From an uncultured Lachnospiraceae bacterium (GTDB taxonomy: Bacteria > Bacillota > Clostridia > Lachnospirales > Lachnospiraceae): a DNA stretch of 64,000 nucleotides. Positions 55,576-63,657 of the stretch are shown in pieces (position 1 is the first letter of the stretch; every line of letters begins with the position of its first letter). Where the stretch lies: the NCBI GenBank assembly GCA_902766735.1, contig CACXEU010000091.1, positions 1-64,000 on the forward strand, written 5' to 3'. The notes under the pieces were generated by a model. The model was not told the DNA's origin, searched no databases, and saw only the letters and a list, made by a program, of their open reading frames with translations. The position numbers and the translations under genes are program-made.

Positions 55576-55608
55576 AAACCGATGGTATTTATGAGATACC
55601 ATCGGTTT
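55576..55608. terminator. Bidirectional terminator, amylase and germination gene
   Basis: AAACCGATGGTAT and ATACCATCGGTTT pair perfectly over 13 bp around TTATGAG. Confidence 0.88.
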
Positions 55609-55609
55609 C

Positions 55610-57031
55610 TTATTTGTTTTTGGTTTTGATTGAGACCCGGAAAAATCGTTGTAGAAATTCTTTGGAACGAAAAGGAACCAATGGCTCAATGTAACTGGTC
55701 TGTGCAATAGTTCGATTCATGACAATGGCTAATACTCCAATGATACATCCTGAAACAAATCCCCATAAACCAAACATTTGGGTTAAAATCACTGCAATAA
55801 TTCGTAAGAATTTTATGGAATACGCCAGTTCATAGTTTTCGTGGGTGAAATTGGCAATTGCCACTACCGCCATATATAACATGGTATGAGGATTAAACCA
55901 ACCGGTCTGCACAGCATAATCTCCAATGACAATTGCTGCAATTAAACTGAGAGGCGTATTCAACGTACTAGGCGTATTGATTGCTGCCAGTTTCAATCCA
56001 TCAATAGACAATTCCAGCAGAATGATTTGCCAGAAAATCGGAATATGATCCACTTGATTATATTGAGCAAAACTGAGCCATTCAGGAACCAGCCCGGGAT
56101 GATTAGCATAAAGCAAAAATAACGGAATAAGGACAAAGGACATCAAAGCCATAAAGGCTCTGGCCAGACGTAGATAAGTTCCTGTTACCGGTGGAAAATA
56201 ATAATCATCCGCTTCTTCAATCACATCAAAAATAGTTGTAGGTAAAAGCATTGCTGCCGGGGAATTATCCACCAGAATCGCTACTTGTCCTTCCAGAATT
56301 TCCGCAGCAGCCGTGTCCGGTCGTTCCGTATATCGAAACTTTGGAAAGGGATTAAACCAATGCCCCTTATATAGACATTCTGCCAAACTTTCCTGATTCA
56401 TAGGAAGGGAATCTATTTCAATCTTGCTTAACTGCTTTTTAATTCTTGATAACAAATTCACATCCACCCGGTCTGCCATATAACAAATCGCAATATCTGT
56501 TCGGGAGCTGGTTCCCACCCGAACAATTTCACACATATATTTCGGACTTCGAATCCTTCTACGAATTAATGCCGTATTATATACAATGGTTTCCACAAAT
56601 CCATCTCTGGAACCACGGAGTACCTTGTACTTTTCCGGTTCCATGACATTTCTTGCCGGATACTGTCTCGTATCAATAAGAAAGGCTTGATCGAACCCAT
56701 CCATAACCATACAGGTCACACCGGACAACAATAAAGTTATAACATTGTACTCATCCCCATAAAGATCCACTTCCACATAAGGAATCATTCGGTCTGAAAA
56801 ACTTTTGGGATCCTCCCCCACATCCTCCGGTTGCACCTGATAAAAACTATCTTGAAGACGCTGCATCAAATCTTCCTGACAAAAACCGTTAATGAAATAA
56901 AAGGCAGCCTTTCTTCCTCCGATTTCTGTCTGTTTCTTTAATAAATCAAAACTATCCTGAATTCGTAAAAGCTGATCAATTTTTTTCGTATCTTGTTCAA
57001 AATTTCCGGTAATAAATTTTTCTATTTTCAT
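55610..57031 (-). CDS. GerA/SpoVAF-family spore germination protein
   Basis: An inner-membrane spore protein of 473 aa: soluble N-terminal domain (about 1-240, QTEIGGRKAAFYFINGF) and a membrane domain of about five helices (about 280-450, PPVTGTYLRLARAFMALMSF). No gerB or gerC partner is present, which favours a SpoVAF-like role over a nutrient receptor. ATG at 57031 is preferred: GAGGTG lies 6 bases upstream. That Shine-Dalgarno is inside a 12-bp hairpin, and a sporulation-type promoter overlaps it. It lies 69 bases after rnfB. Confidence 0.85.
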   Translation of the reverse strand: MKIEKFITGNFEQDTKKIDQLLRIQDSFDLLKKQTEIGGRKAAFYFINGFCQEDLMQRLQDSFYQVQPEDVGEDPKSFSDRMIPYVEVDLYGDEYNVITLLLSGVTCMVMDGFDQAFLIDTRQYPARNVMEPEKYKVLRGSRDGFVETIVYNTALIRRRIRSPKYMCEIVRVGTSSRTDIAICYMADRVDVNLLSRIKKQLSKIEIDSLPMNQESLAECLYKGHWFNPFPKFRYTERPDTAAAEILEGQVAILVDNSPAAMLLPTTIFDVIEEADDYYFPPVTGTYLRLARAFMALMSFVLIPLFLLYANHPGLVPEWLSFAQYNQVDHIPIFWQIILLELSIDGLKLAAINTPSTLNTPLSLIAAIVIGDYAVQTGWFNPHTMLYMAVVAIANFTHENYELAYSIKFLRIIAVILTQMFGLWGFVSGCIIGVLAIVMNRTIAQTSYIEPLVPFRSKEFLQRFFRVSIKTKNK

Positions 57032-57035
57032 GCAA

Positions 57036-57069
57036 AACACCTCACACTGTACTTATTGTGTGAGGTGTT
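57036..57069 (-). promoter_or_regulatory. Hairpin burying the ribosome-binding site of the germination gene
   Basis: In the minus-strand RNA AACACCTCACAC pairs perfectly with GTGTGAGGTGTT over 12 bp around a 10-base loop. The 3' arm contains the Shine-Dalgarno. Only TTTT follows, so it may both weakly terminate rnf read-through and block translation. Confidence 0.7.
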
Positions 57070-57082
57070 GTAAAAAATATAC
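57054..57082 (-). promoter_or_regulatory. Candidate sigma-G/F-type promoter
   Basis: GTATA (complement of 57078-57082) and CACAATA (complement of 57054-57060), 17 bases apart, each one mismatch from the forespore consensus GMATR and CATNHTA. Suits a germination gene. Confidence 0.45.
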
Positions 57083-57099: not shown

Positions 57100-57885
57100 T
57101 TACAGTTTTTCAATGATTTTCTTTGGACATTTTTCTGCGCAGGCTCCACACCATTCACAGATGTCCTGCTGAATCCAGGCAATGTTGTAATCGAACTGAA
57201 CCGCGTTAACCGGACAAATTTTTGCACACATACCGCACCCGATGCAACCAACGCTACATGCCTGCATTACGTCTTTTCCTTTGTTCTTAGAAGAACATTT
57301 TACCATATACTTGGTATCTTGCGGAATAATGGAAATGAGTCCCTTTGGACAGGCATCCACACACTTTCCACAAGCCTTACATTTATCTCTGTCAACAACG
57401 GCTTTTCCGTTTTCAATATGAATCGCATCGAATTCACAAACCTTGACACAAGAGCCTAATCCTAAGCATCCATAGTCGCAAGCTTTCGCTCCGCCACCCG
57501 GAATATTTGCTGCGTCCTGACAGGACATATTTCCGTGGTAATTATATTTATTCTTGGAAACTTCACAATCTCCCGCACAGGCTACATATGCCATTTTCGG
57601 AACAACCTCTGCTTCCACTCCCATGATTTCAGCAATCACCTTAGCAACCGGTGCACCACCTACCGGACATGCTGCCGGATCACTTTCTCCTTTTGCAATT
57701 GCTGCAGCAAGGCCATCACAACCAGGATATCCACAACCACCACAGTTGTTTCCCGGTAACGCTTCTCGCACTGCAACCTCTTTTTCATCCACTTCCACAG
57801 CAAGGAATTTACCGGCAATACCCAGTGCGATTCCAATCAAAAGGCCAACGCCACCTACAATCAATACAGCGTAAAATACTTCCAT
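57100..57885 (-). CDS. rnfB: Rnf complex subunit RnfB
   Basis: Ferredoxin-accepting iron-sulfur subunit, 261 aa: one N-terminal membrane helix (about 4-24), a 4Fe-4S domain (NNCGGCGYPGCDGL...AACPVGG), then several ferredoxin-type CxxCxxCxxxC motifs (CKACGKCVDACP, CIGCGMCAKICP, CEWCGACAEKCP). Last gene of rnfCDGEAB. Confidence 0.97.
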   Translation of the reverse strand: MEVFYAVLIVGGVGLLIGIALGIAGKFLAVEVDEKEVAVREALPGNNCGGCGYPGCDGLAAAIAKGESDPAACPVGGAPVAKVIAEIMGVEAEVVPKMAYVACAGDCEVSKNKYNYHGNMSCQDAANIPGGGAKACDYGCLGLGSCVKVCEFDAIHIENGKAVVDRDKCKACGKCVDACPKGLISIIPQDTKYMVKCSSKNKGKDVMQACSVGCIGCGMCAKICPVNAVQFDYNIAWIQQDICEWCGACAEKCPKKIIEKL

Positions 57886-63456: not shown

Positions 63457-63657
63457 TTATCTTCCGCTCATCTGTCTTTCCTGAGCTTCGATCATCTTTT
63501 TAACCATCTGTCCTCCAACAGAACCTGCTTCAGCAGATGTTAAATGACCATTGTAACCATCCTTTAACTGTACTCCGACTTCAGATGCACATTCCATCTT
63601 AAAACGGTTTAAAGCACTTTTTGCTTCAGGAACATTAATTCTTGAATTGTTATCCAT
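63457..63657 (-). CDS. Small acid-soluble spore protein, alpha/beta type
   Basis: DNA-protecting spore protein of 66 aa, made in the forespore and degraded at germination. The conserved KMECASEVGVQ holds the germination-protease region and SAEAGSVGGQMVKKMIE the DNA-binding helix. ATG at 63657 has GGAGG 8 bases upstream. Confidence 0.95.
   Translation of the reverse strand: MDNNSRINVPEAKSALNRFKMECASEVGVQLKDGYNGHLTSAEAGSVGGQMVKKMIEAQERQMSGR

Follow-up and report, generated by a model that had tools for sequence, protein, structure and literature searches.

How leakage into developmental genes located behind active operons is prevented is seldom explained in bacteria. The question arises for a spore germination gene of an uncultured Lachnospiraceae bacterium, found directly behind an energy operon in the window analyzed here, i.e., the whole 64,000-nucleotide stretch of contig CACXEU010000091.1. 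An earlier note on this DNA had proposed that a hairpin silences the gene in read-through RNA while a sporulation promoter, overlapping the same hairpin, yields a shorter RNA that can be translated. With a probability of roughly three in four, the leader at 57031-57082 is such a start-site-dependent insulator. Sequence analysis established the hairpin, the presence of the Shine-Dalgarno (SD) sequence in its stem, the register of the promoter, the loss of structure upon truncation, the conservation of the layout, its link with gene context and its recurrence at other genes. The interpretation of the earlier note is supported by these results, with one addition: insulation may act on transcription too, as many relatives have terminator-like hairpins.

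The gene was correctly recognized in the earlier note as GerA-type. It encodes a lone A-type subunit, and the PF03323 match spans residues 24-472 of the protein (460 bits against a cut-off of 27). Within the window the gene is solitary and lies outside any spoVA operon. The operon upstream is rnfCDGEAB, whose rnfB stop codon is 30 bases from the hairpin and 68 nt ahead of the germination gene start. When the interval between rnfB and the germination gene was scanned in the window, no terminator-like site was found besides the masking hairpin, the first clear terminator downstream of rnfB being the one just 3' of the germination gene (Table 1).

Table 1. Coordinates in the window of the germination gene, its neighbors and the elements of its leader
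Feature	Position	Strand	Basis
Spore germination gene of the GerA family (single A-type subunit), start codon ATG at 57031	55613..57031	-	PF03323, E 1e-137
rnfB, final gene of the upstream rnf operon, candidate source of read-through	57100..57885	-	RnfB family models
Strong hairpin terminator just 3' of the germination gene	55576..55608	.	Inverted repeat that can be read from either strand
5' arm of hairpin, AACACCTCACAC	57058..57069	-	Perfect complement of 3' arm
Hairpin loop, AATAAGTACA	57048..57057	-	Sequence
3' arm of hairpin, GTGTGAGGTGTT, with SD TGAGGTGT	57036..57047	-	GTGAGGT nearly invariant in congeners
-10 element CACAATA, end of 5' arm and loop	57054..57060	-	CACA[AC]TA kept in aligned congeners
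-35 element GTATA, 17-nt spacer	57078..57082	-	GTATA or GAATA with 17-nt spacer in most congeners

On the minus strand, the 5' arm, the loop and the 3' arm follow each other directly, and only TTGC separates the 3' arm from the ATG (57031-57029). The 12-bp stem is perfectly paired, with a minimum free energy of -18.9 kcal/mol (z -4.9), and none of 200 shuffles folds as well. As the earlier note had stated, the SD is contained in the 3' arm of this hairpin, and opening it costs about 17 kcal/mol. Regarding the promoter, the proposed overlap of GTATA-17-CACAATA with the 5' arm is confirmed, the first three bases of the -10 element being the end of the arm and the other four belonging to the loop. 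The promoter resembles those of the sigma-G type, and sigma-G or sigma-F would be the likely factor. Its -10 element resembles the CATAATA found in the promoter of a SASP gene in the same genus, which displays the forespore pattern of the genus, GTTTA-17-CATAATA. The longer leader of the SASP gene in the window, judged by eye, shows no masking hairpin. The SASP promoter region itself (window 63469-63642, minus strand, and upstream; L125-L135) is conserved in the genus well past the -35 and -10 elements; GTTAC...GTAAC sequences flank it, and the palindrome TTCAATTGAA directly follows the start. This might be a site for a regulator.

The cost of opening the SD depends sharply on where the RNA begins. 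With 5' ends at 57067 or upstream it amounts to 15-19 kcal/mol (17-19 upstream of 57069), and it falls to about 3 kcal/mol once the 5' end passes 57062 (about 3.4 from 57061 onward); therefore, the SD is left free wherever the RNA begins from the -10 element onward, in agreement with the claim that RNA without the 5' arm is unmasked. The transcription start is predicted at about 57048-57046 because of the position of the -10 element. The earlier note had placed it in the loop, which holds as far as the end of the loop is concerned, but it may lie slightly later, at the very beginning of the 3' arm; with 5' ends at 57048-57047, the SD opens at about 3.1 kcal/mol in the short RNA. When the leader was dinucleotide-shuffled with the SD arm fixed, 0 of 3000 shuffles reached the observed 17.3 kcal/mol (mean 6.2, highest 16.7). 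Stretches of two congeners served as genomic background; among 1,033 genes of one congener, the median SD opening was 2.5 kcal/mol and the 99th percentile 12.9.

Taken together, these features suggest a mechanism with two alternative RNAs. Read-through RNA from the rnf operon would carry both arms, form the 12-bp hairpin and bury the SD, so that the gene would stay silent in growth. In the forespore, the sigma-G (or sigma-F) holoenzyme would start transcription where the loop ends, past the entire 5' arm, and the resulting RNA, having only the 3' arm, could not form the hairpin and would be translated from an exposed SD. Both the read-through and the translational silencing are what we infer from the arrangement of these elements. 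Given its poor U-tract, the leader of the window species would act mainly at the level of translation; where relatives possess a U-tract, the same hairpin would also terminate the upstream transcript, the insulation probably being double.

The layout can be followed in the genus, where the germination gene adjoins rnfB in all 13 genomes that carry it, including that of the window. Eleven leaders can be aligned. Their -35 and -10 elements and their SD hardly vary, the GNATA/-10 promoter remains in register, and conservation of the pairing between rnfB and the germination gene, suggested in the earlier note as a check, is found in 10 of the 11: the stem is extended in seven leaders, shorter in three (G006, G011, and G005) and mismatched in G008, which has gained an extra terminator-like hairpin after rnfB. 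A paired change in the -10 element occurs in G006, where CACAATA with TATTGTG replaces CACACTA with TAGTGTG; in this small genus set, the covariation of the rnfB-class leaders was not above that of shuffles. Two genomes depart from the pattern: the G007 leader folds in another way, placing the start codon in a stem, and has an SD opening of 4.4 kcal/mol, and in G019 an inserted repeat replaces the 5' arm, the 3' arm being intact. The G019 repeat (L012 / L296, G019:C1:1983117-1983249), located between rnfB and the gene, has several partial copies in the genome and no Rfam match; Rfam gave no match for the three loci tested. The germination gene is absent from ten congeners that also lack SASP and full SpoVAD, one of them having only a broken SpoVAD fragment. 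About ten small-genome congeners are without a GerA-like gene, SASP, spoIVA and full SpoVAD and DUF1540 matches while nearly all retain rnfB, a joint absence that points to a loss of sporulation within the genus.

At the family level, 80 Lachnospiraceae loci of the germination gene were compared, the usual upstream gene being dut (dUTPase gene; labels based on tblastn). Start codons in this set were chosen by SD strength, a choice that could favor G-rich arms, and those of L056, L079, and L085 are doubtful. Where the upstream gene is adjacent and co-directional (57 loci), the SD opening has a median of 15.5 kcal/mol and is at least 10 in 84% of cases, whereas the 21 loci without such a neighbor have a median of 4.9 and none reaches 10 (P = 9e-9, a value that overstates the case as loci share ancestry). 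In the dut class, 39 of 41 leaders fold around the SD with a median hairpin of 23 bp; all 39 of these hairpins contain the -10 element, and 34 of the 39 have a predicted start beyond the 5' arm. Stem sequences in this class vary by species, and arms pair better with their own partners than after swapping (0 of 5000 permutations). Masked leaders, with unrelated stems, follow at least rnfB and dut, and in single cases other genes.

Other genes with the same layout were sought without bias by scanning about 1.5 Mb of a congener for a masked SD with a nested sigma-G-like promoter. Six genes pass, namely the germination gene, a DUF1540 gene, sigG, and genes for enolase, a MazF-like protein and an oxidoreductase; as the last three are also retained, the filter alone is not sporulation-specific. 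The DUF1540 gene, whose full-length match is confined to sporulating congeners, lies behind the threonyl-tRNA synthetase gene thrS (identified by eye from the sequence), and its hairpin holds GAATA-17-CACAATA or CACACTA in 12/12 species. Opening the SD of these leaders costs 13-24 kcal/mol, and about 2-7 on truncation, G-U pairs are tolerated in the stems, and the covariation score beats every shuffle (0/500). A second small hairpin (ATCGG...CCGAA) can be found inside the masking loop, kept in 12/12 species (L289-L294, L283-L288). In spoIVA, behind a gene read as cardiolipin synthase, the SD is masked and a CATATATT element, which looks like a sigma-E -10 element, is present in the 5' arm in 11/12 species (opening 13-21 kcal/mol; covariation reached by 2/500 shuffles). 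Masking of sigG behind sigE is weaker, with an opening of 8 or more in 9/13. It is from the dut class, DUF1540 and spoIVA, not from the rnfB class, that the support from covariation derives.

Among about 1,000 genes of one congener, the eight most strongly masked include three sporulation-linked genes and two transposase genes. Protection by masking of the SD is already known for transposase genes. Two further leaders were observed in G013. The SD of a LytTR response regulator gene (L254:12962-13714, minus strand) is buried by an almost perfectly paired hairpin of some 30 bp; its opening cost of 29.6 kcal/mol exceeds that of all other genes among about 1,000. In the enolase gene (L241:17534-18796, plus strand), the SD is masked, a U-tract comes after it and a sigma-G-like motif is present, an arrangement that is possibly an attenuator.

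Could the hairpin simply be the intrinsic terminator of the upstream operon, with the spore promoter and the SD packed into it and the masking as a by-product? U-tracts and positive terminator scores (calculated for the window, the congeners and the dut class) are found in many dut-class hairpins and in five congeners, and in the window the masking hairpin is the sole structure between rnfB and the germination gene. However, the window hairpin scores -7.6, under the usual threshold, with TTTTGCAT as its tail, and the combination of a stable hairpin with a U-rich tract that characterizes intrinsic terminators is seen in several relatives, not in the window. Moreover, G006 and G011 retain the SD stem without any U-tract (-74 and -44), and the SD is located within the stem in every masked case, a placement that a terminator alone does not need. 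We hold this explanation to be unlikely.

The inverted repeat might also be a DNA operator, bound by a regulator that overlaps the promoter, since it is perfect and covers part of the -10 element; this is very improbable, as the gap between the TCACA and TGTGA half-sites varies among congeners (7, 8, 10, 11, or 12 nt), the stem sequences of the dut class differ while pairing is kept, and G-U pairs are tolerated. A dimeric repressor, for which half-site spacing should be fixed, was rejected as a candidate in view of this range. Hardly any weight is given to a chance complementarity between the conserved -10 element (CACACTA) and the conserved SD (GTGTGAGG), inherited in one genus. Within the genus the stem core is indeed nearly constant and covariation there is weak, but the shuffles described above all fall short of the observed SD opening, and the arrangement is found again, together with covariation, after dut, after thrS and after the gene that precedes spoIVA, where the sequences are unrelated. 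An insulator that depends on the start site remains the preferred reading of the leader.

With regard to the family as a whole, we see about even chances that Lachnospiraceae generally insulate sporulation genes in this way from co-directional housekeeping operons, by a developmental promoter nested in a hairpin that masks the SD and often terminates transcription, a design that would work with both sigma-E and sigma-F/G promoters and evolve independently, from unrelated sequences, each time a sporulation gene lands behind an active gene. In the present case, a leader of about 50 nt would suffice, with no added factor, as the choice of the start site would decide translatability. If general, the layout would provide a sequence signature for sporulation start sites and genes in uncultured gut bacteria, as well as a compact design for leak-free switches.

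In the largely non-subscription literature that was searched, no such sporulation leaders were found in Clostridia; the layout was described there neither for germination genes nor for DUF1540 or spoIVA, nor as a feature that recurs across a family and is linked to the neighboring gene. The masking principle is itself already known, being established for T4 e and I-TevI and proposed for sigG of Bacillus subtilis. In the latter, located behind spoIIGA-sigE, a large hairpin has been proposed to block translation of sigG (spoIIIG) from read-through RNA, whereas RNA that starts at the sigG promoter itself is unable to fold into it (PMC5942855, with reference to Masuda 1988 and Sun 1991). As in B. 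subtilis, the present case concerns a sporulation gene behind another operon, with a hairpin that would mask it in read-through RNA. However, sigG is a sigma-factor gene following a sporulation operon, whereas here a germination gene follows a vegetative energy operon, the forespore -10 element is itself in the hairpin, and the arrangement recurs family-wide. In phage T4, a hairpin sequesters the SD of e, soc, 49, and I-TevI in the early long RNAs, and late promoters near the 5' strand of the e hairpin give RNA without that arm, which is well translated (PMC3014915). Those are phage genes with phage late promoters, unlike the bacterial chromosome, the sporulation sigma factors and the often terminator-like U-tract considered here. 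RNA structure in read-through RNA is also said to protect transposase genes from external promoters, reportedly in work by Davis in 1985 for Tn10/IS10 and by Beuzon in 1999 for IS200. Both papers appear among the references of PMC2965389. By analogy, the window leader resembles this self-protection; unlike mobile elements, which can land anywhere, it would combine fixed gene neighbors with a developmental switch. What appears to be new is the recurrent, neighbor-linked use of such insulators at sporulation genes.
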